Source of the DNA: Lentinus brumalis
Taxonomy: Eukaryota; Basidiomycota; Agaricomycetes; Polyporales; Polyporaceae
Reading direction: 5' to 3'
DNA length: 64,000 nt
Assembly (NCBI GenBank): GCA_001792895.1
Contig: MARA01000042.1
Span: 124,001 to 188,000, forward strand
In this document: positions 2,845 through 45,923 of the stretch, piece by piece
How the letters are laid out: each line of letters starts with the position of its first letter
Position numbering within the stretch: position 1 is the stretch's first letter
The notes under the pieces: generated by a model
Told to the model about the DNA's origin: nothing
Database searches by the model: none
What the model saw: only the letters and a program-made list of their open reading frames with translations
Program-made: the position numbers and the translations under genes

Positions 2845-2865
2845 GATTCTTCGTGTACTTTTTAG

Positions 2866-16421: not shown

Positions 16422-16439
16422 GAAGCACGGTTCGGCCCA
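16422..16439. repeat. Left boundary: core GAAGCA plus right-hand half-site
   Basis: GAAGCA (16422-16427) is followed by CGGT and the 8-mer TCGGCCCA (16432-16439), the half of the inverted arm pair carried by the element's left end. Confidence 0.75.
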
Positions 16440-17295
16440 CCGACGATCTCAGTCCTCCGGCTGTCTGACATAAGCACAGCTACAGTCCTCGGCCGTCGCC
16501 TAACGGAGCGTCCGGACAGCGACCGAGGACCCCAGAGCGCGGAAACACGGGCGGCTGCAAGGCAGGAGGCCATCGAGCGAAATGACAAGTCCGCCGCGCT
16601 CTCCGACCTTGCAGCGTCGGAGTAACTGGTGATGAAACAGTCGACCTGCCCATTGAAATGAGAGACGAAGGTGGAGGACATGCACAGGAACGCGGCGGTC
16701 GAGAGTCCGCGCGCATCTTAGCGAATACAGAGGCTACCATAGTACTATGATAGTAGTCAGTACTTACCGTCCAGTGTAATCACAGCTCGAACGACTGTGC
16801 CCAGTCTTGTTGCGGCTCGTTTCGCCTTCCGTTAGACGCGTGAAGACGTTCAGAGGAACGAGCATATGTGGTCCACGAAGCTCCAGAGTTCTGCAAGGTG
16901 TCGCTGCAAGCGCGAACTCGCGGACGGCGGCGAAGCCTTCCGAATTTGGATGCAACTGGCGGCGGGCAGGTCACGAGATCCGGTTGACCGCTAGGACTGT
17001 AACTTTCCCACTTGGACTGTAACTCTTCCCTGAGGCAGCGGATTTCCCTACCCCCTGAATCTTGCAGGCGGCCCAGCAAAATGCAGCAAGCAGCGATTCC
17101 GATACCGATCAGTCACAGTCCTCAAGTTACAGTCCCTCGGCGGACGCCCCGCCCTGTGATGACGGCTCTCCTCCTGTCCCCTCTGTCCCCACCTCTCTCT
17201 CTCTGTATCTTCGTCGCATTCTTCGTCGCTTGCAACGCTCTCGGCTCGTGCCCAGTCCCCGTCGACGCACATCGTGAGCAGACTGTGCTTTTGTA
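16428..17295 (+). promoter_or_regulatory. Non-coding left end of the element with repeated GGACTGTAAC-type motifs and an inverted repeat
   Basis: No gene is supported in these 868 bp (also 26264-27131 and 36089-36956). GGACTGTAAC occurs directly at 16994-17003 and 17014-17023 and inverted as GTTACAGTCC at 17126-17135, with one-mismatch inverted forms at 17112-17121 (GTCACAGTCC) and at the extreme left end, 16479-16488 (GCTACAGTCC). An imperfect inverted repeat pairs TCCTCGGCCGTCGC (from 16486) with GCGACCGAGGA (16519-16529). These could be promoter elements of the nuclease gene or recombinase accessory sites; both are inference. Confidence 0.45.
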
Positions 17296-19887
17296 ATGGG
17301 CGTGAAAGGACTCTGGACTGTATGTTCCAGTCTCCTCCTCGCTCGTCGAAGTTACTTACCGTCTCTACAGCTGTTGAAGCCAGCATGCGTTACCGAGTCC
17401 TTTCGGACGTTATGCATACGAGAAGGGTTTGAGGGCGATCGACAAGACCGTCTATACTGGATTGGGATCGACGTCAGGTATGTCTACATTGCGTTCAGCT
17501 CTCCGCTCCCCCTAGCTCTAACACTTGCACTTCTTATTGCAGCATCTGGGCACGGCAATTCCAACTCGCACCGTACTCTCGCGGTCATGTACAGGCAGGA
17601 GAGAATCCAGAGTTGCGAGGGTTCTTCTACCGCCTTGCCAAGCTCGCTGAGCAACCTGTCCACCTCATCTTCGTCGCCGACGGACCCCGCCGACCATCGC
17701 AGAAACGCGGAAAACGAGTCAAGAAGACTCCGAACTGGATGATGGACCGAATGGAGAAGCTTGTCAAGGCATTTGGTTTTGGTTGGTTGGTTGTGAGTTC
17801 GCCAGTGTCCTCTCGCGCATGTCTCCTGACTCACTTCGTCATAGGCTGCTGGAGAAGCGGAGGCCGAGCTTGCGAAGATGAACGAGCTTGGCATCATCGA
17901 CGCTGTCATGACAGAGGATAGCGACGTCTTCATTTTTGGAGCACGCGTCGTTATCAGAAGGTACGTTACACCGTCCCGATTGTTCGCACCATGTCTGGAC
18001 TCTTGAGCCTGACGATGACATAGTCTTGACTTCAAGAGGGGTGCAAAGGATTACGTGGAGGTATACCGCAGCACGCGGATCCTCGAGAAGATGGGTCTCG
18101 CCCATGCCGACCTCGTTCTCCTCGCGCTGCTCAAGGGCAACGACTACGACAAGGTACACTTACCACGCTCCTCTTGTATGCCCTATGAGCCTGTCTAACT
18201 ACTCTTTCCTCGCCAGACCGGCCTTCCTCGATGTGGACTGCAGAAAGCCCACGGCCTCGTCAAGTATGGGCTTGGCAGGTCGCTCTATGACACCCTGGTA
18301 GCGCGCACAGACAACGACCTTCGGGTGCATCTGACGATCTGGCGCGAGCAACTCAGAGCCAAATTGCGCTCCGATCCAGATGGTTTCATTGGTCACGCGT
18401 GTCCCTCTCTCGCCATCGCTGTTACCGACAGCTTCCCCAAGCTCAAGGTCGCGTCACTCCTAGCTCGACCCGCGCTCCTCAGCCCAAGGGCTTATGATAC
18501 ACTATCCGGGCCTCGGCGCATGGATCTTGCGCAGATTGCAATGTTCTGTGAGGTCCACTTCTCCTTTGGGAGTCGTGCAGAGTTGTTAGTCGCCCTTCGC
18601 AAGGCGCTTTGGCCTGATGAAGCCGTGCGAATGCTAATCGACGAGGGCTTGAGACGCGCTGCAGATCATTCCCAGGTATGCTTCAGTTTTGCTGACATCG
18701 CGTTCCCCACTGACACTAATCCTTGACCAGATTCGCCACGTCGTCGACGTCAAGGTGACTACTGTGGGCGAACCACCAGCAAACGGCTATGCGCTCTGCT
18801 CGGTCTCCATTGAGGACACTGGTTTCAACGACATCGTCACCAGGTCGCTGCGCGATCTTCGCTCGCATCGCACTACCGTACAACTCTCAGAGGCTGAGAT
18901 GCTCGCGAAGGCGCAGCGCCCGTGCAGGGTTCGTTTACCCGCACTCATCGTGGAACGCGCACGTCCCCGCTTGGTCAACCCCAGGTTTGACATCGAAGGC
19001 TACCTCTATGGACATGTTCCGCCCCCCGCCGTGGCCGCATCTGTACCACCTTCAGGTGAGGCTTACGTCACATTGGTGTTTCTTCTGACCATGACCGAAT
19101 TACTCTCCACTGTCCAGGTCCCTCGCGCTCTGACATATACGACCAGCTTGCTAATATGGAGCTCGAGGATGTGGACGAATCCCTGCAGGGCTCACACTCA
19201 AGCTTACCATGTCTCGGCGTGCGTGCGCACCCTCTGGATATCGTGTCACCACCTAGGACCATCACGGAGATCCTCGATTCGGACTCTGACGACGACAACA
19301 ACGGCATGTTCATGGACATCGCTGACATCCTGCGCGAAGCTGCCGAGCTGCGCGAGTCACAATCAGTAGCGACGACGATGACTGCCCCCAGTTCTTTGGC
19401 TGCGCGCGCCGCCGCTCCGCAATCGGCTTTGAGCATGCCTTCCACATCTCAACTATCTTCCTCATCGGCTTCTTCGACTGCGACCGGCCCACAGAACGAC
19501 CCTGCTTCCTCCCCTTCTTCTCCCATCACGTCAATGACCATTCCCGCACCTTGCACGATGTCCTCCACCGCCGCGTCGTCTAGTAGCATCACAGCTACAC
19601 TGTCCACTTCGTCGCTTATGTCTTCCAGGTCGTCTCGCACCATGCCGTTCTCGCCGTCATTCACCGCCTCACCTGCATCACCGCCCCGCACGATGTTGTC
19701 CTCGAGCAAGAGGACATCATCATCCTCCATCCCTCGTGTCCTCCCGCCTCCCTTGGACATCATCGACCTAACCCATGAGCCTGTTGGGCAGGCTTATGAC
19801 TCAACCATGATAGACTTGACTTACGAGCCTGTTCCGACCCCTGCACAAGTTACGTTCGACGATGTCATCGATCTTACTTTGGACTAG
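17296..19887 (+). CDS. XPG/FEN-family structure-specific nuclease with C-terminal SIM-like triplet (copy 1)
   Basis: The family cuts flaps, bubbles or Holliday junctions with two metal ions. Reading join(17296..17319,17371..17477,17543..17792,17845..17960,18024..18153,18217..18675,18731..19055,19118..19887) gives 726 residues. MGVKGLWT opens the XPG N domain; D42 lies in WIGIDVSIW. The XPG I domain has GEAEAEL (E131, E133) and VMTEDSDVFIFG (D152, D154), followed by LLKGNDYDKTGLPRCG (D206), so the acidic active site is complete. A basic stretch KRGKRVKKTP precedes domain I, as in GEN1/Yen1-like members. The tail after about residue 480 is acidic and serine-rich and ends with three SUMO-interaction-like cores: IIDLT (685-689), MIDLT (701-705) and VIDLT (720-724). 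Position inside the element suggests a role in its recombination or replication; that is inference. Confidence 0.88.
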
Positions 19888-20365
19888 TATCTGTATCTCT
19901 ACCTCGGCTTTGTGTATCTGTAGCCCCCATTGTAGCTCCTTTACACCTGTAACTCTGTACATTAGCTCTGTATAACATATATTGCATGGTCCATAAGCAG
20001 AATCTGAAACTGTGTCCACGCGCGAACACCACCGATAGGATTTGGCCAAGCGCCTATTTCGATTAGGTCCGCTTACTTACTTTGACTACTACAAATATTC
20101 AATGTCCGCATAAGCTCCTTCTAAGCATTTTTAGCATCTGTGGGACATTCATACAATTCAAACTATCACTGTTTCAACCCCGCTTTCACTGTCCGAAACA
20201 GCACACAACTCTGCCCAGCTCCGGCGCTTGTTCTCGCCTCTCTTGCTCTCAGCTGCTGGCACGGTGCCGTCCTCAGTACTATTCCACGTACGTTCTGCTC
20301 GCTTTTGTTGTCAGTCTGGCTACCATTTGACACGTCTGTTCTAGACTGAAGAGGCTGGAATCGGA
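19888..20365. other. Spacer after the nuclease gene
   Basis: 3' flank of the nuclease gene (also 29713-30190 and 39549-40026). A possible upstream exon of the next gene reads in an open frame near 20165-20285 and ends at a GTACGT donor, but it has no ATG, so it is not annotated as coding. Confidence 0.4.
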
Positions 20366-21399
20366 GTGTTGTGTTGTGTCGCATCGCGTGTCGCGAGGTG
20401 TGTCGCGAGGCGTGTTGAGAGGCGTGTCGAGGGGCATGTCGAGAGGCGTGTCGAGAAACAGGCTACTGAGGTATGTACGTCGTGCTTCATTGTGACTGGG
20501 CAATCTTACCTGGTACCCTGCTGGCGAAGCGCGTCAATGTTAGTGCTTGCTCCAGGTGCTGGCTGGCTGACCTTCCGCATTATCAGACGCGGTCAACTGC
20601 CCTCCTGCACGCGACGCGGGTTTATGCCTCTCAAGGCGAAGAAGCTCCTTCAGATTGCGCAGCAACACATGAGCGAGGCCCAGCACGCGGCTGAGCTCTC
20701 GAAGGTCGTCGTCCAGGCCTCCGAGCCCGTTGAACTTGTCACCAGAAGCAGTCTCCGCCGCGACTCCTCCTTCCCAGCTCGCGCCCGACCTGTGGCAGTT
20801 CCCTCGCGTTCTCCGTTGCCCACCGTCCTCGGTGTGGTCAATGCAGCTCTGACGCGAGAACGTCGACGCGTGCCACCCCGCCCTCGTTGCTATCCCATGG
20901 CCTGCATCATACGCAGTCTGGCGGCTGCTGGTGATTCGTACGTGCTCTTCTCTCCCTCTTCGTTGCCATGCACTTACTCATCCTTCGGCAGTATATGAAA
21001 TTCCGCAAGGAACGCAGAAGTTGACAGGTCCTGCATGGGTCACCGCAACGGCCTCGTTGATGGGATCAACTTCGTCATCGCGGACCACACCCACATGCAA
21101 GGCAAGTTCCTCCTCCCTTCAACAACTCCACCCACGTTCTCGCCATCTCGGACCTCTCCGTCGCGTACCCCGTTCACAAGAACTGCTCCGGCCGCGTTCA
21201 AGTTAGCCGTGCCTGGCGCAATCTGATCTCCCTCATGCCAGCTCACCGCTCACAGAACCCGGTGGAGGACGCAACTGGAGTTCCGTGCACGATGCTCAAC
21301 GTTCTCGTCGTCTCGCTTGCCACTGTCCCGCACCCGCAGTCGTTCATGTTCCTCCTCCAGACGCTGTACACGCTCAAGGTCCCATGGCTCCTCGACTAG
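20366..21399 (+). CDS. Unresolved element gene of unknown function (copy 1)
   Basis: Codon use is strongly coding in parts, but I recognise no family and cannot join one clean frame. A 5' part includes a 12-bp-period repeat giving arginine/valine/glutamate-rich VERR-type residues. The middle contains KKLLQIAQQHMSEAQHAAEL and LPTVLGVVNAALTRERR. After a probable intron (20939-20994) come YEIPQGTQKLTGPAW, then GLVDGINFVIADHTHMQG in another phase, and finally STHVLAISDLSVAYPVHK through to a TAG at 21397-21399 in a third phase. Each of the last two switches would be cured by one extra base in a short G or C run (near 21039 and 21116). All three element copies share them, so they are either real decay before amplification or a systematic error. 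Confidence 0.4.
20386..20456. repeat. Imperfect 12-bp tandem repeat (GCGTGTCGAGAG-like)
   Basis: About six units of a 12-bp motif, variants of GCGTGTCGAGAG, in the 5' part of the unresolved gene. The same block occurs at 30211-30281 and 40047-40117 in the other copies. The period is a multiple of three, so the repeat could be expanded within a coding frame. Confidence 0.7.
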
Positions 21400-21734
21400 C
21401 TCGTCCCTGTGCTGAAGCTGATAGTCGTGTTCCTCACGCGCGAGAACCCGCAGCCCCGCGCTAATTACTCGAGATGCGCCGTGCAAGTTCTGTTTAGATA
21501 TTCTGTCTTTGCTCATTTGGTACTCTCCCTTGTCATTCAGTATATGTGCGAGTATGGTACATTACCGATATGTAGCGAGCGCGTTTGTATGAAGATCGTG
21601 CTAGTATGGTACATTGTAGGCGCATTGTCAATACATACACAATCATAATACGACATCAATGTCCATGCGAGAAATGAAGTAAGTACCCTGCCAATATTGA
21701 ACGAGCAAGAAGACATCACAACAACTACATGAGC
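21400..21734. other. Spacer between converging genes of the element
   Basis: AT-richer 335-bp stretch (also 31225-31559 and 41061-41395) separating the stop codons of the unresolved gene and the recombinase. GTATGGTACATT appears twice (near 21553 and 21605). It probably holds both 3' ends; no gene is seen. Confidence 0.45.
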
Positions 21735-23536
21735 CTACGCACAAGGACAGGTGCGACCGCACGCTGTGCACGGGTCACCGGCCTTGCGGTTCGGGTTGAA
21801 GTAGTCCTTTCGTGCGACTTTCGGAGCGTCCACCCATGACAGGAGGTACCGGAAGATTGTTCCTGGGTTGTCGAAATCCTCAGCCCAGCCGCCCCACTCG
21901 CAGATCGTCCGGATAGGCCAGCGAAGTTCTGTAGCCAGGTACTGGCAACCTCCGCGTCGGAACGAGTGCATGCCGAAGGGACGGCCGTCAATTCCGATGT
22001 CGGCGAGGTTGTTCTGGAAACAGGCACGAAAGCTCTCGGGCGACTAAGAAGGTACGCGTATGTGAGGGAGGTCAAGGCTCATGCGATAGCGCAAGACTTA
22101 CCATGGCATCCATAGGATCACTGCTGAACTGATCGAAGCCGCGTCGCGAGCGGAAGACATAGCCGCTGTGCTTGAGCCCCATCCGTTCCCATATGAGCCA
22201 CCACCTCGCCCATGCAGCGACAGGATCCAGATGCGGACGCTCTCGGTCTGGCCAAAGGTAGAAAGGCTCGACGTCTATGTGAAGTCAGGCTCAATCATGA
22301 GAAGGACGACTCTGAGGGCGAGAGCGCATCACTTACTCCCAGTCTGAGCGTTCTTCCGGCAGTTCAACTTGATCTCGACGATGGGAACGCCGTCTTCGGA
22401 CTTCAGGAACTGGACATGTTCCCACATGATGCGCAGGACTTCGTCGTAGCGTAGGAGGCAGAGCGTAGATGTCTCGTAGGATGTCTCGAGCATGACGCGC
22501 TGCTTGAAGCCACCCCAGTACGCCGGATTCTCGGCTTTCTGCTTCCGTGTCACCGAGTCCAGTTCCATGGGGAACGCCATATTGAAGTCGTATAGCTGCT
22601 TGAGGATGATGTGATCGACTGCGCGTGCGCTGGTGACGACTTCACCAGCTCGGGCCTAGCGCACTCGTTAGTGACTAATTCCGAGAACAGATCGTGGCCC
22701 GAGAGGCAGCCGGAGCGCACCTTACGACGACGCAAGCTTGTCATGTATTGGTTCACAACATGCGCGAGTGCTGGGTTACCTAGGTAAGAGCCTGGCTTGA
22801 GCGGATCTTGTACCCAGTCGCGCAGGCTGATCTTGAAATCGCGACAGAACTTATGGCTCAGCGCAGCTCGCATTTTCTGCGCTTGAGCGTATTTGACCCG
22901 GACAACTTGCGGGTCCTTCCACTCGCCCGTGATGGGGTCGATGTCGTCTGCCCTGCAGTGGCGTAGTCAGCAACATATGTCGGTGACCAGATGAAGCCCA
23001 GTGAGCCGTTAGTACTCACTTGCTCATAAGCCATGTAATGATCCAGACAGGTGAGCGCACAGGTAAGGTGCTCCAGAATTCGTCGTCATTCTCTTCTGAC
23101 TGAATAAAATCATGGTTGACGCAGAACTGGGTGAACGCTGCCCACAATCTGTCGCAGTGTGAGTGACGACGGGCTCACATTGCAAACAGTGGAAGAAACA
23201 CGCATGGACGAGCACTCACAACATGTAAGTCTTCCGTGTCTTGGGAACAATGACATCGGCGGATGCCTTCTCAATGATCTTCTCCAGATCGACGTACGAC
23301 ACCTTCTCCGAGGAAGGCTTGACAGGAGAAGGTAAGTAAACATAGTTGTCGTTCTCATCATCATCGAAGCCGTCGAAGTGAATGACAGTGTCCATCGTCT
23401 CATTCTCGTCAGCGATGTTCGCTTCGACCTCTTCAGGACTGACATCCTGGACAAGTTTGGCAATGCATGACTCGGCGATGGTGAAGCTGGACTGGCCCGG
23501 GAGAGTTGCCAAAGGATTGGCATTGAACGCAGACAT
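21735..23536 (-). CDS. Tyrosine recombinase, Crypton-like (copy 1)
   Basis: This enzyme should integrate and excise the element by cutting, forming a 3'-phosphotyrosine link and exchanging strands. Reading complement(join(21735..22043,22102..22274,22337..22655,22721..22952,23020..23148,23220..23536)) gives 492 residues. The N-terminal 90 residues are acidic; a SAM-like core-binding region follows (TYMLLWAAFTQFCVNH, then SLRDWVQDPL). The catalytic domain has box I R295 in LCLLRYDEVLRIMW, K327 in the hairpin LNCRKNAQTG, H416 and R419 in GMHSFRRGG, W443 in WGGW, and the nucleophile Y456 in IFRYLL. The set is complete. The C-terminus carries a cysteine cluster CTACGRTCPC that could bind zinc. The first ATG in good context is at 23536. 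It is transcribed divergently from the SAP gene 201 bp away. Confidence 0.92.
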
Positions 23537-23737
23537 GTCGCCAGGGGGTTTTTGAGAGCGTAAGTCCAACGAGGACTGAAGTGGGCGGCGATTCCGAGGA
23601 TATCCGACTCAACGCAGAAGTGATCGGCGGTCGGGTGGGGCCGCAGCCAGTGCAAAAGAGGTTGAGTGCCACCGGCTAGTGTACGACTCAATTCTATGCC
23701 GCACTGTATGATAACCTCCCTCTAATTCTTATTCCCA
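23537..23737. promoter_or_regulatory. Divergent promoter between recombinase and SAP-domain genes (copy 1)
   Basis: 201 bp separate the two start codons on opposite strands; the same spacer is at 33362-33562 and 43198-43398. No TATA box is obvious. Shared control of recombinase and its putative DNA-binding partner is an inference from the layout. Confidence 0.5.
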
Positions 23738-25577
23738 ATGAGCGTCGAAGGAAGTGCCGACGATGTAGAAGTGTTGGTCTTGCCTTGTCCAGGTCAGACC
23801 CTCCGCGAGTCGGAATCTCGCAGGCTCAAGACTTTCAAGCTGCGCATGTGAGTACTTGATATACAAACCGCTTGAGGAGTGAGCTCACCTGATGTATACG
23901 CGACATGGAATAGTGACAAAAAGCTCAAGAAATCCGATATGAAGAACTACCTGTCAGCATTCAGCCTCCCGAAGTCAGGGAACCGCGAAGTGCTGCTTAC
24001 GCGGCTGCGGGAGTACTCGCGGGATCCGGAGAAATGGGCCAGGTGTGCCAAACATGCTCACCTCAAGTCTGTGTATTATGCTGATATGGGTTTCCGTGTA
24101 CAGCATGTTCCGTGCCAATCCTGGTCGTAAACGGGGTAGCATCTCCGCACGCAAGGCTACCAAGAGCCGCGACGCACAGCGGCTACTTGATGAGTTCGGT
24201 CCTCAAGAGAGTGAAGTTGGGGCGTATAAGGCAAAGAAGAGTGGAGTGGAGGTTCGTCCAGAGGCAACAGGGCTAAGCGAAGAGACGGTTCGCGGGAACA
24301 GTGCATGGGTGCGTCCTAGAGATCTTCTCCTCGAGCGTGCGCGCGTGAAGTTGCGGTCATACCGACTTGAGCTGCAGGCGACCGAAGTGTTAGCTGGTTT
24401 ACACACAGAAGCCCCAAGACAGGCTGGCCAAGGCAGCAGTGAGGAGACTCGGGGGCAGGAAGCTGAGCAAGTACCGGCCGCGGTCGGATCCACGGAAACT
24501 CCGAATAAGGTATGTTTCAGCCCACGGCCAGGACAATGGTGCGCATGATATTAATTCAGGCCAGCAGATCACCGGCATCAGGCGTATTGAACATCAGGTC
24601 ATTCGCATGGACAAAGCCTTTTCGACCGAGTTCGCGCTGGTAAAATCCGAGCTATGTCGCATCAACGCGCATCTGTCCGAAGCTCTTCACGTTGCTGCCG
24701 TCCAGGCCCACTCACCTACCGGCAACCCGAGCGAGTCTGCAGATCGAATCTTTACAGAGCTGCCCTCACCAACCACGGTGTCCCGAGGTCAGCTGCACAG
24801 GACCGCAACTGCAACACCGCTGCCCGTGCAACCACCACGCTCGGCACTCTCCGCGCAAACCAATGCTCTCCCTCACATCTTCCGCCCTCCGCTGCGCGTC
24901 CTTGCACAGCACGAAATCCCCGCAGACAAGCTCGCGCTCTTGGACATCGACGGAGACGTCTTGGCATTTGACAAGACCAGTGTTCCTGTCCCGCCATCCC
25001 TCAGCTTTTCTGATGTCTCGAAGCTCTTCCGTGACTGGTATACGTCCACAGATCTCGTGGTCAACGGCCGCGGGATTCCTATCCGGCACTGGAAGCGGCT
25101 CTACACGATGGTCGGTGGCTGGAAGGCCATCAAGGCGCAGTGGAGCAGATTCCAGGTGAGCCTTCATGTTCATGCGCTTGTGCTCCATCATCTGATCCTG
25201 GCATGTCGTAGTTTCTTGTGCAGGAGCGCGAGTTGTTCGCCAGCGAGGACGCCTTCTGGGCGAAGTACAGCCATGAAGACGGTCGCAGGTACAACTACCA
25301 GAGGATCGTCGACACGCTCCAACGCGCGCGCGTACGCACGAATCATCACGATGCATCCGCGGCACTGTTTTTCTTCCACAACGACCTCACACAGGACCGC
25401 GCACTCAATTACTTCAAGTACGTCAGGAGCAGCGAGGTGATATATTGCGAGAAGCCCGCCATCGTCGCGGAGCGTTGGCGACGGCTCCTCATCGACCACC
25501 CGGACATCGCAGTGCAGTGGGAAGCCGTCCGCGAAGACTTCGAAGCTCAATACGATCCATCCAGTCAGCCATCATGA
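23738..25577 (+). CDS. SAP-domain protein with GCR1_C-like DNA-binding region (copy 1)
   Basis: Reading join(23738..23847,23914..24042,24104..24509,24565..25155,25212..25577) gives 533 residues. Residues about 40-75 form a SAP motif (KKSDMKNYLSAFSLPKSGNR then LLTRLREYS), a helix-extended-helix that binds DNA and is common in chromatin and repair proteins. The middle is a basic, low-complexity linker. Residues about 361-450 (DVSKLFRDWYTS, then IPIRHWKRLYTMVGGWKAIK and YNYQRIVDTL) resemble the GCR1_C domain, which many fungal Cryptons carry fused to the recombinase. Here it would be a separate gene. GCR1_C resemblance is by pattern only; the SAP call is firmer. A likely job is to recognise element ends or host DNA for the recombinase; that is inference. 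Confidence 0.8.
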
Positions 25578-26257
25578 TCATCTCATGATGGTCAGCAGCG
25601 TAGCGCACGGCCGCTCTCAGGCTCTCTCACCGACTAACTCTACTACTCAAACCGCTCTCTGCAATCTCAAGTCCCCTTCGAGTCCTAATTTCCGAGCGAC
25701 ACCCACCATCACGCAGCACCTCAACCGGGTGTACACGGAAACCCGGGGGCTCGCGTCATCGATCCCCGTCCTGCGTACGTGCCCCCAGTGCGGCCATGGT
25801 ACTCTCGCGACGACTGTCACATACTAGCATACAACGCCTCTGTATATTGCTCATATGCTTACATCTTGTCTAGTACCTCCTGTCCGGCCTCTCTGCGGGC
25901 GATAATATACCACGCTCCCTTTTTCTTGACTTCCCATCCGAGCCGCCGCTGCTCGCGCAGGCGACCGCGACGTCCGCGCCGGCGAGCGATTGACTGGTAA
26001 TGCAAGTCCGCCCGTCAACCTCTCCCTTCGCACTCCGACCGACCCCGCACTCCGACGACCCATATCGAGAGCACGAGCCGTGCGCGATGACGCGAGCACG
26101 GAGGAAAGTCGTCGATCGCGTTGTCCGGGGGGCGGGAGGAGCGCAGGTGGAGCGGACGATCGCCAAGCGAGGCGTTTAGGACGCCGGTGGCCCCATATGG
26201 TAGGTGTGGGAATTTGGACCAGGACCGAGCGCCCAAAGGACCGCAACTGGCCCGAGA
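25578..26257. other. Non-coding right end of the element
   Basis: 680 bp after the SAP gene (also 35403-36082 and 45239-45917) contain no supported gene. It ends in the left arm TGGCCCGA and GAGA before the next GAAGCA. A G-run near 26127 differs by one base in copy 3. Confidence 0.5.
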
Positions 26258-26275
26258 GAAGCACGGTTCGGCCCA
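26248..26275. other. Internal junction 1: candidate attachment site of the recombinase
   Basis: TGGCCCGA (26248-26255) and TCGGCCCA (26268-26275) are inverted copies with one mismatch in eight. They flank 12 bp that contain the core GAAGCA (26258-26263). Inverted binding arms around a short crossover region are the normal layout for tyrosine-recombinase sites. The arms are formed only when the element's right and left ends are joined, as in a circle or a tandem array. The assignment is inferred, not tested. Confidence 0.65.
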
Positions 26276-27131
26276 CCGACGATCTCAGTCCTCCGGCTGT
26301 CTGACATAAGCACAGCTACAGTCCTCGGCCGTCGCCTAACGGAGCGTCCGGACAGCGACCGAGGACCCCAGAGCGCGGAAACACGGGCGGCTGCAAGGCA
26401 GGAGGCCATCGAGCGAAATGACAAGTCCGCCGCGCTCTCCGACCTTGCAGCGTCGGAGTAACTGGTGATGAAACAGTCGACCTGCCCATTGAAATGAGAG
26501 ACGAAGGTGGAGGACATGCACAGGAACGCGGCGGTCGAGAGTCCGCGCGCATCTTAGCGAATACAGAGGCTACCATAGTACTATGATAGTAGTCAGTACT
26601 TACCGTCCAGTGTAATCACAGCTCGAACGACTGTGCCCAGTCTTGTTGCGGCTCGTTTCGCCTTCCGTTAGACGCGTGAAGACGTTCAGAGGAACGAGCA
26701 TATGTGGTCCACGAAGCTCCAGAGTTCTGCAAGGTGTCGCTGCAAGCGCGAACTCGCGGACGGCGGCGAAGCCTTCCGAATTTGGATGCAACTGGCGGCG
26801 GGCAGGTCACGAGATCCGGTTGACCGCTAGGACTGTAACTTTCCCACTTGGACTGTAACTCTTCCCTGAGGCAGCGGATTTCCCTACCCCCTGAATCTTG
26901 CAGGCGGCCCAGCAAAATGCAGCAAGCAGCGATTCCGATACCGATCAGTCACAGTCCTCAAGTTACAGTCCCTCGGCGGACGCCCCGCCCTGTGATGACG
27001 GCTCTCCTCCTGTCCCCTCTGTCCCCACCTCTCTCTCTCTGTATCTTCGTCGCATTCTTCGTCGCTTGCAACGCTCTCGGCTCGTGCCCAGTCCCCGTCG
27101 ACGCACATCGTGAGCAGACTGTGCTTTTGTA

Positions 27132-28815
27132 ATGGGCGTGAAAGGACTCTGGACTGTATGTTCCAGTCTCCTCCTCGCTCGTCGAAGTTACTTACCGTCT
27201 CTACAGCTGTTGAAGCCAGCATGCGTTACCGAGTCCTTTCGGACGTTATGCATACGAGAAGGGTTTGAGGGCGATCGACAAGACCGTCTATACTGGATTG
27301 GGATCGACGTCAGGTATGTCTACATTGCGTTCAGCTCTCCGCTCCCCCTAGCTCTAACACTTGCACTTCTTATTGCAGCATCTGGGCACGGCAATTCCAA
27401 CTCGCACCGTACTCTCGCGGTCATGTACAGGCAGGAGAGAATCCAGAGTTGCGAGGGTTCTTCTACCGCCTTGCCAAGCTCGCTGAGCAACCTGTCCACC
27501 TCATCTTCGTCGCCGACGGACCCCGCCGACCATCGCAGAAACGCGGAAAACGAGTCAAGAAGACTCCGAACTGGATGATGGACCGAATGGAGAAGCTTGT
27601 CAAGGCATTTGGTTTTGGTTGGTTGGTTGTGAGTTCGCCAGTGTCCTCTCGCGCATGTCTCCTGACTCACTTCGTCATAGGCTGCTGGAGAAGCGGAGGC
27701 CGAGCTTGCGAAGATGAACGAGCTTGGCATCATCGACGCTGTCATGACAGAGGATAGCGACGTCTTCATTTTTGGAGCACGCGTCGTTATCAGAAGGTAC
27801 GTTACACCGTCCCGATTGTTCGCACCATGTCTGGACTCTTGAGCCTGACGATGACATAGTCTTGACTTCAAGAGGGGTGCAAAGGATTACGTGGAGGTAT
27901 ACCGCAGCACGCGGATCCTCGAGAAGATGGGTCTCGCCCATGCCGACCTCGTTCTCCTCGCGCTGCTCAAGGGCAACGACTACGACAAGGTACACTTACC
28001 ACGCTCCTCTTGTATGCCCTATGAGCCTGTCTAACTACTCTTTCCTCGCCAGACCGGCCTTCCTCGATGTGGACTGCAGAAAGCCCACGGCCTCGTCAAG
28101 TATGGGCTTGGCAGGTCGCTCTATGACACCCTGGTAGCGCGCACAGACAACGACCTTCGGGTGCATCTGACGATCTGGCGCGAGCAACTCAGAGCCAAAT
28201 TGCGCTCCGATCCAGATGGTTTCATTGGTCACGCGTGTCCCTCTCTCGCCGTCGCTGTTACCGACAGCTTCCCCAAGCTCAAGGTCGCGTCACTCCTAGC
28301 TCGACCCGCGCTCCTCAGCCCAAGGGCTTATGATACACTATCCGGGCCTCGGCGCATGGATCTTGCGCAGATTGCAATGTTCTGTGAGGTCCACTTCTCC
28401 TTTGGGAGTCGTGCAGAGTTGTTAGTCGCCCTTCGCAAGGCGCTTTGGCCTGATGAAGCCGTGCGAATGCTAATCGACGAGGGCTTGAGACGCGCTGCAG
28501 ATCATTCCCAGGTATGCTTCAGTTTTGCTGACATCGCGTTCCCCACTGACACTAATCCTTGACCAGATTCGCCACGTCGTCGACGTCAAGGTGACTTCTG
28601 TGGGCGAACCACCAGCAAACGGCTATGCGCTCTGCTCGGTCTCCATTGAGGACACTGGTTTCAACGACATCGTCACCAGGTCGCTGCGCGATCTTCGCTC
28701 GCATCGCACTACCGTACAACTCTCAGAGGCTGAGATGCTCGCGAAGGCGCAGCGCCCGTGCAGGGTTCGTTTACCCGCACTCATCGTGGAACGCGCACGT
28801 CCCCGCTTGGTTTGA
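27132..28815 (+). pseudogene. XPG/FEN-family nuclease, C-terminally truncated (copy 2)
   Basis: Same exons as copy 1 shifted by 9,836 bp. The catalytic N and I domains are intact. An 11-bp deletion after position 28811 causes an immediate TGA at 28813-28815, so the product is 444 residues and lacks the acidic, serine-rich tail and all three SIM-like motifs. The orphaned tail coding sequence remains at 28816-29712. Substitutions relative to copy 1: I to V (base 28251) and T to S (base 28597). The truncated enzyme could still cut DNA but would lose any SUMO-dependent targeting; that is inference. Confidence 0.85.
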
Positions 28816-30190
28816 CATCGAAGGCTACCTCTATGGACATGTTCCGCCCCCCGCCGTGGCCGCATCTGTACCACCTTCAGGTGAGGCTTACGTCACATTG
28901 GTGTTTCTTCTGACCATGACCGAATTACTCTCCACTGTCCAGGTCCCTCGCGCTCTGACATATACGACCAGCTTGCTAATATGGAGCTCGAGGATGTGGA
29001 CGAATCCCTGCAGGGCTCACACTCAAGCTTACCATGTCTCGGCGTGCGTGCGCACCCTCTGGATATCGTGTCACCACCTAGGACCATCACGGAGATCCTC
29101 GATTCGGACTCTGACGACGACGACGACGGCATGTTCATGGACATCGCTGACATCCTGCGCGAAGCTGCCGAGCTGCGCGAGTCACAATCAGTAGCGACGA
29201 CGATGACTGCCCCCAGTTCTTTGGCTGCGCGCGCCGCCGCTCCGCAATCGGCTTTGAGCATGCCTTCCACATCTCAACTATCTTCCTCATCGGCTTCTTC
29301 GACTGCGACCGGCCCACAGAACGACCCTGCTTCCTCCCCTTCTTCTCCCATCACGTCAATGACCATTCCCGCACCTTGCACGATGTCCTCCACCGCCGCG
29401 TCGTCTAGTAGCATCACAGCTACACTGTCCACTTCGTCGCTTATGTCTTCCAGGTCGTCTCGCACCATGCCGTTCTCGCCGTCATTCACCGCCTCACCTG
29501 CATCACCGCCCCGCACGATGTTGTCCTCGAGCAAGAGGACATCATCATCCTCCATCCCTCGTGTCCTCCCGCCTCCCTTGGACATCATCGACCTAACCCA
29601 TGAGCCTGTTGGGCAGGCTTATGACTCAACCATGATAGACTTGACTTACGAGCCTGTTCCGACCCCTGCACAAGTTACGTTCGACGATGTCATCGATCTT
29701 ACTTTGGACTAGTATCTGTATCTCTACCTCGGCTTTGTGTATCTGTAGCCCCCATTGTAGCTCCTTTACACCTGTAACTCTGTACATTAGCTCTGTATAA
29801 CATATATTGCATGGTCCATAAGCAGAATCTGAAACTGTGTCCACGCGCGAACACCACCGATAGGATTTGGCCAAGCGCCTATTTCGATTAGGTCCGCTTA
29901 CTTACTTTGACTACTACAAATATTCAATGTCCGCATAAGCTCCTTCTAAGCATTTTTAGCATCTGTGGGACATTCATACAATTCAAACTATCACTGTTTC
30001 AACCCCGCTTTCACTGTCCGAAACAGCACACAACTCTGCCCAGCTCCGGCGCTTGTTCTCGCCTCTCTTGCTCTCAGCTGCTGGCACGGTGCCGTCCTCA
30101 GTACTATTCCACGTACGTTCTGCTCGCTTTTGTTGTCAGTCTGGCTACCATTTGACACGTCTGTTCTAGACTGAAGAGGCTGGAATCGGA

Positions 30191-31224
30191 GTGTTGTGTT
30201 GTGTCGCATCGCGTGTCGCGAGGTGTGTCGCGAGGCGTGTTGAGAGGCGTGTCGAGGGGCATGTCGAGAGGCGTGTCGAGAAACAGGCTACTGAGGTATG
30301 TACGTCGTGCTTCATTGTGACTGGGCAATCTTACCTGGTACCCTGCTGGCGAAGCGCGTCAATGTTAGTGCTTGCTCCAGGTGCTGGCTGGCTGACCTTC
30401 CGCATTATCAGACGCGGTCAACTGCCCTCCTGCACGCGACGCGGGTTTATGCCTCTCAAGGCGAAGAAGCTCCTTCAGATTGCGCAGCAACACATGAGCG
30501 AGGCCCAGCACGCGGCTGAGCTCTCGAAGGTCGTCGTCCAGGCCTCCGAGCCCGTTGAACTTGTCACCAGAAGCAGTCTCCGCCGCGACTCCTCCTTCCC
30601 AGCTCGCGCCCGACCTGTGGCAGTTCCCTCGCGTTCTCCGTTGCCCACCGTCCTCGGTGTGGTCAATGCAGCTCTGACGCGAGAACGTCGACGCGTGCCA
30701 CCCCGCCCTCGTTGCTATCCCATGGCCTGCATCATACGCAGTCTGGCGGCTGCTGGTGATTCGTACGTGCTCTTCTCTCCCTCTTCGTTGCCATGCACTT
30801 ACTCATCCTTCGGCAGTATATGAAATTCCGCAAGGAACGCAGAAGTTGACAGGTCCTGCATGGGTCACCGCAACGGCCTCGTTGATGGGATCAACTTCGT
30901 CATCGCGGACCACACCCACATGCAAGGCAAGTTCCTCCTCCCTTCAACAACTCCACCCACGTTCTCGCCATCTCGGACCTCTCCGTCGCGTACCCCGTTC
31001 ACAAGAACTGCTCCGGCCGCGTTCAAGTTAGCCGTGCCTGGCGCAATCTGATCTCCCTCATGCCAGCTCACCGCTCACAGAACCCGGTGGAGGACGCAAC
31101 TGGAGTTCCGTGCACGATGCTCAACGTTCTCGTCGTCTCGCTTGCCACTGTCCCGCACCCGCAGTCGTTCATGTTCCTCCTCCAGACGCTGTACACGCTC
31201 AAGGTCCCATGGCTCCTCGACTAG
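30191..31224 (+). CDS. Unresolved element gene of unknown function (copy 2)
   Basis: Shifted by 9,825 bp from copy 1 and identical as far as I can read, including the two phase changes near 30864 and 30941. Family and exact exons remain unknown. Confidence 0.4.
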
Positions 31225-31559
31225 CTCGTCCCTGTGCTGAAGCTGATAGTCGTGTTCCTCACGCGCGAGAACCCGCAGCCCCGCGCTAATTACTCGAGAT
31301 GCGCCGTGCAAGTTCTGTTTAGATATTCTGTCTTTGCTCATTTGGTACTCTCCCTTGTCATTCAGTATATGTGCGAGTATGGTACATTACCGATATGTAG
31401 CGAGCGCGTTTGTATGAAGATCGTGCTAGTATGGTACATTGTAGGCGCATTGTCAATACATACACAATCATAATACGACATCAATGTCCATGCGAGAAAT
31501 GAAGTAAGTACCCTGCCAATATTGAACGAGCAAGAAGACATCACAACAACTACATGAGC

Positions 31560-33361
31560 CTACGCACAAGGACAGGTGCGACCGCACGCTGTGCACGGGT
31601 CACCGGCCTTGCGGTTCGGGTTGAAGTAGTCCTTTCGTGCGACTTTCGGAGCGTCCACCCATGACAGGAGGTACCGGAAGATTGTTCCTGGGTTGTCGAA
31701 ATCCTCAGCCCAGCCGCCCCACTCGCAGATCGTCCGGATAGGCCAGCGAAGTTCTGTAGCCAGGTACTGGCAACCTCCGCGTCGGAACGAGTGCATGCCG
31801 AAGGGACGGCCGTCAATTCCGATGTCGGCGAGGTTGTTCTGGAAACAGGCACGAAAGCTCTCGGGCGACTAAGAAGGTACGCGTATGTGAGGGAGGTCAA
31901 GGCTCATGCGATAGCGCAAGACTTACCATGGCATCCATAGGATCACTGCTGAACTGATCGAAGCCGCGTCGCGAGCGGAAGACATAGCCGCTGTGCTTGA
32001 GCCCCATCCGTTCCCATATGAGCCACCACCTCGCCCATGCAGCGACAGGATCCAGATGCGGACGCTCTCGGTCTGGCCAAAGGTAGAAAGGCTCGACGTC
32101 TATGTGAAGTCAGGCTCAATCATGAGAAGGACGACTCTGAGGGCGAGAGCGCATCACTTACTCCCAGTCTGAGCGTTCTTCCGGCAGTTCAACTTGATCT
32201 CGACGATGGGAACGCCGTCTTCGGACTTCAGGAACTGGACATGTTCCCACATGATGCGCAGGACTTCGTCGTAGCGTAGGAGGCAGAGCGTAGATGTCTC
32301 GTAGGATGTCTCGAGCATGACGCGCTGCTTGAAGCCACCCCAGTACGCCGGATTCTCGGCTTTCTGCTTCCGTGTCACCGAGTCCAGTTCCATGGGGAAC
32401 GCCATATTGAAGTCGTATAGCTGCTTGAGGATGATGTGATCGACTGCGCGTGCGCTGGTGACGACTTCACCAGCTCGGGCCTAGCGCACTCGTTAGTGAC
32501 TAATTCCGAGAACAGATCGTGGCCCGAGAGGCAGCCGGAGCGCACCTTACGACGACGCAAGCTTGTCATGTATTGGTTCACAACATGCGCGAGTGCTGGG
32601 TTACCTAGGTAAGAGCCTGGCTTGAGCGGATCTTGTACCCAGTCGCGCAGGCTGATCTTGAAATCGCGACAGAACTTATGGCTCAGCGCAGCTCGCATTT
32701 TCTGCGCTTGAGCGTATTTGACCCGGACAACTTGCGGGTCCTTCCACTCGCCCGTGATGGGGTCGATGTCGTCTGCCCTGCAGTGGCGTAGTCAGCAACA
32801 TATGTCGGTGACCAGATGAAGCCCAGTGAGCCGTTAGTACTCACTTGCTCATAAGCCATGTAATGATCCAGACAGGTGAGCGCACAGGTAAGGTGCTCCA
32901 GAATTCGTCGTCATTCTCTTCTGACTGAATAAAATCATGGTTGACGCAGAACTGGGTGAACGCTGCCCACAATCTGTCGCAGTGTGAGTGACGACGGGCT
33001 CACATTGCAAACAGTGGAAGAAACACGCATGGACGAGCACTCACAACATGTAAGTCTTCCGTGTCTTGGGAACAATGACATCGGCGGATGCCTTCTCAAT
33101 GATCTTCTCCAGATCGACGTACGACACCTTCTCCGAGGAAGGCTTGACAGGAGAAGGTAAGTAAACATAGTTGTCGTTCTCATCATCATCGAAGCCGTCG
33201 AAGTGAATGACAGTGTCCATCGTCTCATTCTCGTCAGCGATGTTCGCTTCGACCTCTTCAGGACTGACATCCTGGACAAGTTTGGCAATGCATGACTCGG
33301 CGATGGTGAAGCTGGACTGGCCCGGGAGAGTTGCCAAAGGATTGGCATTGAACGCAGACAT
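31560..33361 (-). CDS. Tyrosine recombinase, Crypton-like (copy 2)
   Basis: Exons of copy 1 shifted by 9,825 bp: complement(join(31560..31868,31927..32099,32162..32480,32546..32777,32845..32973,33045..33361)), 492 residues. All catalytic residues and the C-terminal cysteine cluster are kept, and I see no change from copy 1. Confidence 0.9.
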
Positions 33362-33562
33362 GTCGCCAGGGGGTTTTTGAGAGCGTAAGTCCAACGAGGA
33401 CTGAAGTGGGCGGCGATTCCGAGGATATCCGACTCAACGCAGAAGTGATCGGCGGTCGGGTGGGGCCGCAGCCAGTGCAAAAGAGGTTGAGTGCCACCGG
33501 CTAGTGTACGACTCAATTCTATGCCGCACTGTATGATAACCTCCCTCTAATTCTTATTCCCA

Positions 33563-35402
33563 ATGAGCGTCGAAGGAAGTGCCGACGATGTAGAAGTGTT
33601 GGTCTTGCCTTGTCCAGGTCAGACCCTCCGCGAGTCGGAATCTCGCAGGCTCAAGACTTTCAAGCTGCGCATGTGAGTACTTGATATACAAACCGCTTGA
33701 GGAGTGAGCTCACCTGATGTATACGCGACATGGAATAGTGACAAAAAGCTCAAGAAATCCGATATGAAGAACTACCTGTCAGCATTCAGCCTCCCGAAGT
33801 CAGGGAACCGCGAAGTGCTGCTTACGCGGCTGCGGGAGTACTCGCGGGATCCGGAGAAATGGGCCAGGTGTGCCAAACATGCTCACCTCAAGTCTGTGTA
33901 TTATGCTGATATGGGTTTCCGTGTACAGCATGTTCCGTGCCAATCCTGGTCGTAAACGGGGTAGCATCTCCGCACGCAAGGCTACCAAGAGCCGCGACGC
34001 ACAGCGGCTACTTGATGAGTTCGGTCCTCAAGAGAGTGAAGTTGGGGCGTATAAGGCAAAGAAGAGTGGAGTGGAGGTTCGTCCAGAGGCAACAGGGCTA
34101 AGCGAAGAGACGGTTCGCGGGAACAGTGCATGGGTGCGTCCTAGAGATCTTCTCCTCGAGCGTGCGCGCGTGAAGTTGCGGTCATACCGACTTGAGCTGC
34201 AGGCGACCGAAGTGTTAGCTGGTTTACACACAGAAGCCCCAAGACAGGCTGGCCAAGGCAGCAGTGAGGAGACTCGGGGGCAGGAAGCTGAGCAAGTACC
34301 GGCCGCGGTCGGATCCACGGAAACTCCGAATAAGGTATGTTTCAGCCCACGGCCAGGACAATGGTGCGCATGATATTAATTCAGGCCAGCAGATCACCGG
34401 CATCAGGCGTATTGAACATCAGGTCATTCGCATGGACAAAGCCTTTTCGACCGAGTTCGCGCTGGTAAAATCCGAGCTATGTCGCATCAACGCGCATCTG
34501 TCCGAAGCTCTTCACGTTGCTGCCGTCCAGGCCCACTCACCTACCGGCAACCCGAGCGAGTCTGCAGATCGAATCTTTACAGAGCTGCCCTCACCAACCA
34601 CGGTGTCCCGAGGTCAGCTGCACAGGACCGCAACTGCAACACCGCTGCCCGTGCAACCACCACGCTCGGCACTCTCCGCGCAAACCAATGCTCTCCCTCA
34701 CATCTTCCGCCCTCCGCTGCGCGTCCTTGCACAGCACGAAATCCCCGCAGACAAGCTCGCGCTCTTGGACATCGACGGAGACGTCTTGGCATTTGACAAG
34801 ACCAGTGTTCCTGTCCCGCCATCCCTCAGCTTTTCTGATGTCTCGAAGCTCTTCCGTGACTGGTATACGTCCACAGATCTCGTGGTCAACGGCCGCGGGA
34901 TTCCTATCCGGCACTGGAAGCGGCTCTACACGATGGTCGGTGGCTGGAAGGCCATCAAGGCGCAGTGGAGCAGATTCCAGGTGAGCCTTCATGTTCATGC
35001 GCTTGTGCTCCATCATCTGATCCTGGCATGTCGTAGTTTCTTGTGCAGGAGCGCGAGTTGTTCGCCAGCGAGGACGCCTTCTGGGCGAAGTACAGCCATG
35101 AAGACGGTCGCAGGTACAACTACCAGAGGATCGTCGACACGCTCCAACGCGCGCGCGTACGCACGAATCATCACGATGCATCCGCGGCACTGTTTTTCTT
35201 CCACAACGACCTCACACAGGACCGCGCACTCAATTACTTCAAGTACGTCAGGAGCAGCGAGGTGATATATTGCGAGAAGCCCGCCATCGTCGCGGAGCGT
35301 TGGCGACGGCTCCTCATCGACCACCCGGACATCGCAGTGCAGTGGGAAGCCGTCCGCGAAGACTTCGAAGCTCAATACGATCCATCCAGTCAGCCATCAT
35401 GA
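33563..35402 (+). CDS. SAP-domain protein with GCR1_C-like region (copy 2)
   Basis: Same exon pattern as copy 1 shifted by 9,825 bp; 533 residues, no visible change. It is divergent from the copy 2 recombinase across the same 201-bp spacer. Confidence 0.8.
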
Positions 35403-36072
35403 TCATCTCATGATGGTCAGCAGCGTAGCGCACGGCCGCTCTCAGGCTCTCTCACCGACTAACTCTACTACTCAAACCGCTCTCTGCAATCTCAAGTCCC
35501 CTTCGAGTCCTAATTTCCGAGCGACACCCACCATCACGCAGCACCTCAACCGGGTGTACACGGAAACCCGGGGGCTCGCGTCATCGATCCCCGTCCTGCG
35601 TACGTGCCCCCAGTGCGGCCATGGTACTCTCGCGACGACTGTCACATACTAGCATACAACGCCTCTGTATATTGCTCATATGCTTACATCTTGTCTAGTA
35701 CCTCCTGTCCGGCCTCTCTGCGGGCGATAATATACCACGCTCCCTTTTTCTTGACTTCCCATCCGAGCCGCCGCTGCTCGCGCAGGCGACCGCGACGTCC
35801 GCGCCGGCGAGCGATTGACTGGTAATGCAAGTCCGCCCGTCAACCTCTCCCTTCGCACTCCGACCGACCCCGCACTCCGACGACCCATATCGAGAGCACG
35901 AGCCGTGCGCGATGACGCGAGCACGGAGGAAAGTCGTCGATCGCGTTGTCCGGGGGGCGGGAGGAGCGCAGGTGGAGCGGACGATCGCCAAGCGAGGCGT
36001 TTAGGACGCCGGTGGCCCCATATGGTAGGTGTGGGAATTTGGACCAGGACCGAGCGCCCAAAGGACCGCAAC

Positions 36073-36100
36073 TGGCCCGAGAGAAGCACGGTTCGGCCCA
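36073..36100. other. Internal junction 2: candidate attachment site of the recombinase
   Basis: Identical to the first internal junction: arms at 36073-36080 and 36093-36100 around core GAAGCA at 36083-36088. Confidence 0.65.
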
Positions 36101-36956
36101 CCGACGATCTCAGTCCTCCGGCTGTCTGACATAAGCACAGCTACAGTCCTCGGCCGTCGCCTAACGGAGCGTCCGGACAGCGACCGAGGACCCCAGAGCG
36201 CGGAAACACGGGCGGCTGCAAGGCAGGAGGCCATCGAGCGAAATGACAAGTCCGCCGCGCTCTCCGACCTTGCAGCGTCGGAGTAACTGGTGATGAAACA
36301 GTCGACCTGCCCATTGAAATGAGAGACGAAGGTGGAGGACATGCACAGGAACGCGGCGGTCGAGAGTCCGCGCGCATCTTAGCGAATACAGAGGCTACCA
36401 TAGTACTATGATAGTAGTCAGTACTTACCGTCCAGTGTAATCACAGCTCGAACGACTGTGCCCAGTCTTGTTGCGGCTCGTTTCGCCTTCCGTTAGACGC
36501 GTGAAGACGTTCAGAGGAACGAGCATATGTGGTCCACGAAGCTCCAGAGTTCTGCAAGGTGTCGCTGCAAGCGCGAACTCGCGGACGGCGGCGAAGCCTT
36601 CCGAATTTGGATGCAACTGGCGGCGGGCAGGTCACGAGATCCGGTTGACCGCTAGGACTGTAACTTTCCCACTTGGACTGTAACTCTTCCCTGAGGCAGC
36701 GGATTTCCCTACCCCCTGAATCTTGCAGGCGGCCCAGCAAAATGCAGCAAGCAGCGATTCCGATACCGATCAGTCACAGTCCTCAAGTTACAGTCCCTCG
36801 GCGGACGCCCCGCCCTGTGATGACGGCTCTCCTCCTGTCCCCTCTGTCCCCACCTCTCTCTCTCTGTATCTTCGTCGCATTCTTCGTCGCTTGCAACGCT
36901 CTCGGCTCGTGCCCAGTCCCCGTCGACGCACATCGTGAGCAGACTGTGCTTTTGTA

Positions 36957-39548: not shown

Positions 39549-40026
39549 TATCTGTATCTCTACCTCGGCTTTGTGTATCTGTAGCCCCCATTGTAGCTCC
39601 TTTACACCTGTAACTCTGTACATTAGCTCTGTATAACATATATTGCATGGTCCATAAGCAGAATCTGAAACTGTGTCCACGCGCGAACACCACCGATAGG
39701 ATTTGGCCAAGCGCCTATTTCGATTAGGTCCGCTTACTTACTTTGACTACTACAAATATTCAATGTCCGCATAAGCTCCTTCTAAGCATTTTTAGCATCT
39801 GTGGGACATTCATACAATTCAAACTATCACTGTTTCAACCCCGCTTTCACTGTCCGAAACAGCACACAACTCTGCCCAGCTCCGGCGCTTGTTCTCGCCT
39901 CTCTTGCTCTCAGCTGCTGGCACGGTGCCGTCCTCAGTACTATTCCACGTACGTTCTGCTCGCTTTTGTTGTCAGTCTGGCTACCATTTGACACGTCTGT
40001 TCTAGACTGAAGAGGCTGGAATCGGA

Positions 40027-41060: not shown

Positions 41061-41395
41061 CTCGTCCCTGTGCTGAAGCTGATAGTCGTGTTCCTCACGC
41101 GCGAGAACCCGCAGCCCCGCGCTAATTACTCGAGATGCGCCGTGCAAGTTCTGTTTAGATATTCTGTCTTTGCTCATTTGGTACTCTCCCTTGTCATTCA
41201 GTATATGTGCGAGTATGGTACATTACCGATATGTAGCGAGCGCGTTTGTATGAAGATCGTGCTAGTATGGTACATTGTAGGCGCATTGTCAATACATACA
41301 CAATCATAATACGACATCAATGTCCATGCGAGAAATGAAGTAAGTACCCTGCCAATATTGAACGAGCAAGAAGACATCACAACAACTACATGAGC

Positions 41396-43197: not shown

Positions 43198-43398
43198 GTC
43201 GCCAGGGGGTTTTTGAGAGCGTAAGTCCAACGAGGACTGAAGTGGGCGGCGATTCCGAGGATATCCGACTCAACGCAGAAGTGATCGGCGGTCGGGTGGG
43301 GCCGCAGCCAGTGCAAAAGAGGTTGAGTGCCACCGGCTAGTGTACGACTCAATTCTATGCCGCACTGTATGATAACCTCCCTCTAATTCTTATTCCCA

Positions 43399-45907: not shown

Positions 45908-45923
45908 TGGCCCGAGAGAAGCA
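45908..45923. repeat. Right boundary: left-hand half-site plus core GAAGCA
   Basis: TGGCCCGA (45908-45915) precedes GAAGCA (45918-45923). The following AAACGCAACA is host flank and unrelated to the element's left end. Confidence 0.75.

Follow-up and report, generated by a model that had tools for sequence, protein, structure and literature searches.

A tandemly arrayed tyrosine-recombinase element encoding a GEN1/Yen1-type nuclease in the polypore Lentinus brumalis

Organization of the array and of its genes

The stretch of DNA analysed here, referred to as the window, comprises 64,000 nucleotides from the polypore Lentinus brumalis (contig MARA01000042.1, designated C74 below; C74:124001-188000). 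It was compared with the whole genome of 53.4 Mb, whose 136 contigs are all designated by C-numbers. A self-comparison of the window reveals a large repeat at positions 16415-45923, composed of three head-to-tail units of about 9.84 kb each that share 99.85-99.93% identity. Each unit contains, in this order, a gene for an XPG-family nuclease (+ strand), a gene for a tyrosine recombinase (YR, - strand) and a gene for a protein with a SAP domain (+ strand). We consider it probable that these units are copies of a site-specific DNA transposon of polypores, 8.6-9.8 kb in length, which is mobilized by its tyrosine recombinase and in which the nuclease belongs to the machinery.

The limits of the array are set by the core sequence GAAGCA and enclose exactly three copies (16422-45923). 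This core is present at the left flank (16422..16427, preceded by the host sequence GTGCCGGAG), at the junctions between units 1 and 2 (26258..26263) and between units 2 and 3 (36083..36088), and at the right flank (45918..45923, followed by the host sequence AAACGC). At both inner junctions the right end of one unit is fused straight to the left end of the next via GAAGCA, and host DNA is absent between the units. From core to core, all in the + orientation, unit 1 measures 9836 bp (16422..26257), unit 2 measures 9825 bp (26258..36082) and unit 3 measures 9835 bp (36083..45917). The units differ by substitutions, by an 11-bp deletion in copy 2 and by a 1-bp deletion in copy 3, and four substitutions are common to copies 2 and 3 with respect to copy 1. 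Because of these differences, we regard the array as real and not as a duplicated stretch of the assembly. In unit 1, the left terminus (16428..16455, +) is a 28-mer identical to that of the short non-autonomous elements described below, and the right terminus (26238..26257, +) displays GGACCGCAACTGGCCCGAGA ahead of the core. A cluster of four words of the AGTTACAGTCC type, which are putative binding sites and are also clustered in the short elements, is located at 16994..17135.

The interval 17296-25577 corresponds to the coding portion of unit 1, and gene models built by hand with GT-AG introns, together with Pfam, bear out the presence of the three genes that the initial annotation had placed there. 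The nuclease gene (17296..19887, +) has 8 exons and encodes 726 amino acids with three C-terminal IDLT motifs, the recombinase gene (21735..23536, -) has 6 exons and encodes 492 amino acids, and the SAP gene (23738..25577, +), transcribed divergently from the recombinase as the annotation had proposed, has 5 exons and encodes 533 amino acids. The corresponding genes are found at 27132..29712 (+), 31560..33361 (-) and 33563..35402 (+) in copy 2 and at 36957..39548 (+), 41396..43197 (-) and 43399..45238 (+) in copy 3. Copies 1 and 3 have all three reading frames open. The 11-bp deletion shifts the frame of the copy 2 nuclease, which meets a first stop after 444 codons; the two other frames of this copy are open. 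Database models from Polyporus arcularius, in which the intron choices differ from ours, are 99% identical to the window for the recombinase (over 342 columns), 94% for the SAP protein (over 510 columns) and 92% for the nuclease (over 727 columns). A fourth gene was sought in the open frames at 20345-21399, between nuclease and recombinase, and no convincing counterpart was detected in the elements of contigs C63 and C72; this candidate was dropped, the matches being low complexity, C-terminal tails of nucleases or matches between other copies. The same region contains a 12-bp tandem repeat (20386-20456).

The recombinase, the nuclease and the SAP protein

The recombinase matches the Pfam family PF00589 with an E-value of 0.0041, which is weaker than Pfam's own cut-off. 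Its catalytic residues, assigned by motif, are R295, K327, H416, R419, W443 and Y456; the set is complete, in agreement with the initial annotation, and is conserved at 90% or more over 50 aligned rows, which represent 49 different proteins (P0090 is contained twice). The predicted fold is Cre-like, and its fold matches include Ndc10 (6gyp, E=8.2e-4). The domain NDC10_II is weakly matched by two of the 50 rows scanned (best value 0.0066). Pfam scans of the C74 recombinase and of the 50 homologue rows at E<=1 recovered neither GCR1_C nor DUF3435 (0/50 for the latter). Viral contigs scanned with the recombinase gave 46 matching stretches, none of them a confirmed relative, and the recombinase profile, run against the PDB sequences, retrieved a single row, due to chance. 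The protein ends soon after the catalytic tyrosine with a cysteine-rich tail CxxCxRTCxC (window 21735-21800), in which the cysteine positions are kept in 90% or more of the aligned rows and which possibly binds metal. The element genes currently appear in the databases as "DNA breaking-rejoining enzyme", "PIN domain-like protein" or hypothetical protein.

The nuclease is recognized by the Pfam families XPG_I (3.2e-20) and XPG_N (8e-7). A profile made from three members retrieves the GEN1 structure of Chaetomium as the best one (8.9e-58), followed by human GEN1 (2.8e-28), RAD2/XPG (about 7e-26), FEN1 (about 3e-20) and EXO1 (1e-12). On these sequence comparisons, the element nuclease is of the GEN1/Yen1 type, a family of Holliday-junction resolvases, rather than FEN1-like. 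The acids D42, D90, E131, E133, D152, D154 and D206 do not vary among the three element copies compared and align with acids of Chaetomium GEN1 (CtGEN1). The element residues were mapped by motif position on the catalytic residues of human GEN1, as listed in the available portion of PMC5039027; the counterpart of human E75 is an aspartate here and in CtGEN1. The initial annotation was thus right about the intact active site of the FEN/XPG nuclease, and its FEN-like label has to be replaced by GEN1/Yen1-like. Cleavage of four-way junctions by this enzyme is predicted from its family only.

The 40 nuclease rows (20,435 amino acids) contain 23 instances of the pattern [VI]DLT, and the 120 recombinase rows (44,115 amino acids) contain none. 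The sequence IDLT, which we take to be a SUMO-interaction motif, is also present in host-type GEN1/YEN1 rows of the database (e.g. P0149, P0156 and P0159). Two solo host GEN1 genes with a GEN1_C chromodomain were found in the genome (C56:526337-528635, 1.7e-29; C97:66845-68723, 1.1e-16, partial). Two GEN1 paralogues in one fungus are unusual. In the nuclease tree, the element-type sequences form a group separate from both host genes (support 97/93 for the wider group of 37 rows), and a clade of 32 rows containing the C74, C63 and C72 nucleases is supported at 88/85; some branches of the tree are long. The initial annotation had looked to lone nuclease and SAP genes at host loci as a sign against a mobile gene set; this was not borne out, the solo genes on C56 and C97 falling outside the element clade.

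The SAP protein is composed of a SAP domain close to the N-terminus (Pfam, 2.5e-7), a middle part predicted with low confidence and, at the C-terminus, a conserved domain some 190 residues long. In the structure model the predicted local distance difference test (pLDDT) score reaches 61-86 in the C-terminal block for a whole-model mean of 52, from an alignment in which the tails of two rows are misplaced. The initial annotation had proposed a GCR1_C-like region in this protein. No GCR1_C match was obtained with Pfam in three element versions even at E<=10, no PDB fold matched the C-terminal block, and the PDB sequence search with a profile of the C74 and C72 proteins (31% identical to each other) gave five chance rows. 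A search of this genome for GCR1_C, run without a positive control, found none. The proposal is unconfirmed because the C-terminal domain has no recognizable relative by Pfam, fold or PDB search. A match to AcrF3 (E 0.1, one of four queries) was rejected as due to chance.

Other loci, short elements and conserved ends

Searching the genome with the recombinase detected at least four loci, on contigs C74 (the three copies), C63, C72 and C92. The nuclease gene adjoins the recombinase gene at all four, and the SAP gene is found at three of them (C74, C63 and C72). On C63 and C72 the order and orientation of the trio are the same as on C74, with identities to the C74 proteins of 52% and 51% for the recombinase and of 49% and 43% for the nuclease; spurious small end exons in the spliced alignments of C63, C72 and C92 were excluded from the protein alignments. 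The C92 locus (C92:142657-160500, read outside 148269-154675) is a decayed copy: stops interrupt both the nuclease and the recombinase, and the latter is split by an insertion of about 9 kb, read in part.

In the database, 12 of the 29 nucleases of the element clade have a listed recombinase in the same species and on a contig of equal length. They come from 10 named polypore species, one of them P. arcularius, possibly the species of the window itself or its sister. The number expected by chance is 1.03 (from contig sizes, assuming genomes of 40 Mb), and the count of 12 is a lower bound, as it was made with 120 of the 177 recombinase rows, a shared contig being deduced from equal length. In two Ganoderma the recombinase and nuclease genes have consecutive numbers. 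The distances between recombinases and those between nucleases are correlated over 12 pairs (r=0.83, p=5e-5), three from this genome and nine from named species; P. arcularius, a near-duplicate of C74, and Trametes coccinea, which has two of each gene on one contig, were left out. The genes occur together outside the array, as the trio on C63 and C72 and as recombinase-nuclease contigs in the ten named species; a lack of such co-occurrence, which the initial annotation had named as a refutation of its reading, is not what was found. The idea that the whole three-gene set is conserved beyond this genome holds for recombinase and nuclease; the SAP gene was found in P. arcularius only.

The left 28-mer is exactly present at eight places of the genome, including the three of the array (0 places for a reversed control pattern), and four right ends with two or three mismatches lie outside C74. 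These additional ends belong to short gene-less elements of about 670 bp, called mini-elements below. Three of them are in tandem at C72:270006-272013, with units 99.85-99.93% identical, and start exactly at the right core of the C72 element. Another one (C89:50483-51150) displays GAAGCA on both sides. Older mini-elements (78-79%) are located at C82:1054061-1054716 and C102:40813-41474, the last being the same as C100:65129-65790; these two may be one locus assembled twice, since they are identical over 850 bp. Fragments were detected at C102:68298-68701 and C1:2576583-2576740. A 40-bp identity between the right flank of the C72 element and the left end of the C74 element had been read as a host target or scar; this reading was dropped, as the stretch is the left end of the mini-elements.

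BLASTN aligns just two regions of the mini-elements with the C74 element, namely the left end and a stretch of 78 bp (about 75%) that contains words of the AGTTACAGTCC type; the short right end is common to both as well. This word, chosen after inspection of the sequence, occurs six times in the C89 mini-element for 0.16 expected and nine times in the C74 unit for 2.2 expected (maximum of 6 in 60 shuffles). As first-look counts were near chance for most words, we rely on the position and the ends and not on motif counts. The sequence CAGTC lies at 28 bp (left) and 20 bp (right) from the core in C63, C72 and the two mini-elements compared; at these offsets C74 has CAGTC on the left and CGGTC on the right. 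The 6-bp direct repeat GAAGCA is perfect at C74 and at the C89 mini-element, and the inverted-repeat score is exceptional compared with random windows at C63 (2/1500) and C72 (0/1500).

Proposed mechanism and alternative explanations

At the level of sequence, the comparisons establish the fixed order nuclease(+)-recombinase(-)-SAP(+), a core of the form GAAG(C/T)N, right-to-left junctions, mini derivatives, tandem arrays of two kinds of element and mini-elements inserted exactly at the end of another element. The divergent trio at other loci, the ends common to gene-less elements and the right-to-left core junctions uphold the claim of the initial annotation that the locus is a mobile element. 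By analogy with its family, the recombinase would excise the element in circular form by recombination at its core, and the circle would reinsert at short GAAGNN targets of the GAAG(C/T)N form, including the ends of resident elements, thereby generating head-to-tail arrays; movement through circles is the most likely route. The subterminal motifs are probably bound by the SAP protein, which may also help the assembly of the synapse, a less certain step. Equally less certain is the part of the nuclease, which we presume to be machinery and not a passenger. Since the nuclease is of the Holliday-junction-resolvase type, the likely mechanism changes: it could resolve the junctions left by the recombinase where donor and target cores differ, or alternatively those arising in concatemers and in circles during replication. 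As a rule, a tyrosine recombinase forms its Holliday junctions and resolves them itself, and it is for this reason unexpected that an element keeps a nuclease of the resolvase family beside its recombinase across genera.

Several observations weigh against this interpretation. Neither a circle nor an excision nor an empty allele has been observed, and the role of the nuclease in transposition is inferred from sequence. The GEN1_C chromodomain is not recognized by Pfam in the element nucleases scanned, and a profile comparison with host GEN1 gives an in-register chromodomain match that is weak (P-value 0.027, probability 1.8%). At C92, examined to C92:160500, the SAP gene is represented by an N-terminal trace only. 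Among the 29 nuclease rows, 17 have no partner in the 120 of 177 recombinase rows used, and host phylogeny could lie behind a part of the correlation of distances. The single SAP match outside this genome, among 7997 candidates scored, comes from P. arcularius, which may be the same species as that of the window, or its sister. The AGTTACAGTCC word is not clearly enriched in C63 (4 versus 1.75) or C72 (3 versus 1.62), and the inverted-repeat score is unexceptional for C74 (768/1500) and for two mini-elements (380/1500 and 176/1500). Finally, the older cores are imperfect (GAAGTA/GAAGTC at C63 and GAAGTA/GAAGCA at C72) and the repeats are looser still at C82 and C102.

How the arrays were formed is a separate question. 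Instead of serial site-specific integration, they may derive from rolling-circle concatemers or from unequal crossing-over after one insertion, an alternative that we take seriously without favouring it. It would account for the near identity of the units (about 99.9%), for the substitutions common to copies 2 and 3 and for the equally high identity of the tandem mini-elements. Unequal crossing-over requires a prior duplication, however, and the mini-element array begins exactly at the core of the end of a different element, as site-specific insertion predicts. A concatemer may nevertheless have integrated via the core.

The nuclease could also be cargo, i.e. a captured host gene giving an indirect benefit with no role in transposition, which we find rather doubtful. 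Classical Cryptons work without a nuclease, according to the available portion of PMC3212892. The nuclease gene is absent from the short non-autonomous elements, which would be explained if the nuclease acts in trans, and it is the nuclease of copy 2 that is frame-shifted, next to open recombinase and SAP frames. On the other hand, the genes carried by other YR elements, such as the Starships, are usually variable. Here the nuclease is present at 4/4 recombinase loci, in the same order and orientation in every whole copy, it is linked to the recombinase in ten named species with correlated distances, and the three element copies compared show no change at any of its seven catalytic positions.

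Fungal Cryptons, like the present element, are a few kilobases long. The element resembles CryptonF by its YR recombinase (R-H-R-Y present here), its 6-bp terminal direct repeat and its proposed circular intermediate; in the portion of PMC3212892 available, terminal direct repeats of 4 or 6 bp are given for CryptonF, and Cbf2/Ndc10 is derived from it. The element might then be a CryptonF whose single protein was split into a recombinase gene and a separate DNA-binding gene, and the 6-bp repeats, which are typical of CryptonF in that source, together with the weak NDC10_II and Ndc10 fold matches, are in favour of this reading; we judge it unlikely. In the same source CryptonF encodes one protein with YR and GCR1_C, whereas the recombinase described here is devoid of GCR1_C; unlike CryptonF, the element has two further conserved genes, one of them a GEN1-type resolvase, and its ends recur in non-autonomous and tandem forms. 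The initial annotation spoke of a possible new class. The conserved three-gene set stands; the element is better seen as a variant of Crypton-like YR transposons, a Crypton-like element of a new kind whose gene set differs from that described for CryptonF. A plain segmental duplication of three adjacent host genes, or an assembly artefact, would fit three near-identical copies on one contig and is highly improbable, as the copies differ by substitutions and the 11-bp deletion, diverged full sets exist on other contigs and the ends are common to gene-less mini-elements.

The element shares with Starships a fungal host, mobilization by a YR and direct repeats (PMC12134995, in part). The same partial source describes Starships as elements of Pezizomycotina, 15 to about 700 kb in size and led by a 5' DUF3435 captain. 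By contrast, the present element measures 8.6-9.8 kb, has its recombinase in the middle of the unit on the opposite strand and does not match DUF3435; it is not a Starship. Its nuclease resembles the GEN1/Yen1 resolvases by the XPG-N/I core, the catalytic acids and the C-terminal IDLT (PMC5039027 and PMC4695337, in part); unlike host GEN1/Yen1, it is encoded by a mobile element and falls in a separate clade that excludes the two host paralogues. Unlike the bacterial integrative elements of the Tn916/Tn1549 type, the element is eukaryotic and contains a junction resolvase, and no conjugation genes were seen in the unit. Among the open-licence papers listed, the titles and abstract openings mention no YR element with an XPG/GEN1 nuclease, which is not proof of absence.

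A more far-reaching version of the transposon interpretation would make these elements a separate superfamily of eukaryotic YR transposons, widespread in Agaricomycetes, with two-enzyme transposition, concatemeric circles and gene-less satellites carried along; we advance it as a tentative proposal that is more likely wrong than right. In this version, the recombinase would perform the first strand exchange at a possibly unmatched core and the GEN1/Yen1 resolvase of the element would finish the reaction. Ordinary tyrosine recombinases are bound by a core-identity rule, from which the element would thereby escape. Should the nuclease participate, this would be a new way of finishing site-specific recombination and would account for insertions where the cores are unlike. 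The mini-elements are ready-made minimal substrates, and the trio could yield new fungal integration tools and define a class of elements hidden under generic database names.

Elsewhere in the window, a 1003-codon open frame (60991-63999, -) resembles by eye the reverse transcriptase of a Ty3/gypsy-type retrotransposon, and a tRNA-Ser (AGA) gene is located away from the array at 2865-2947 (-).

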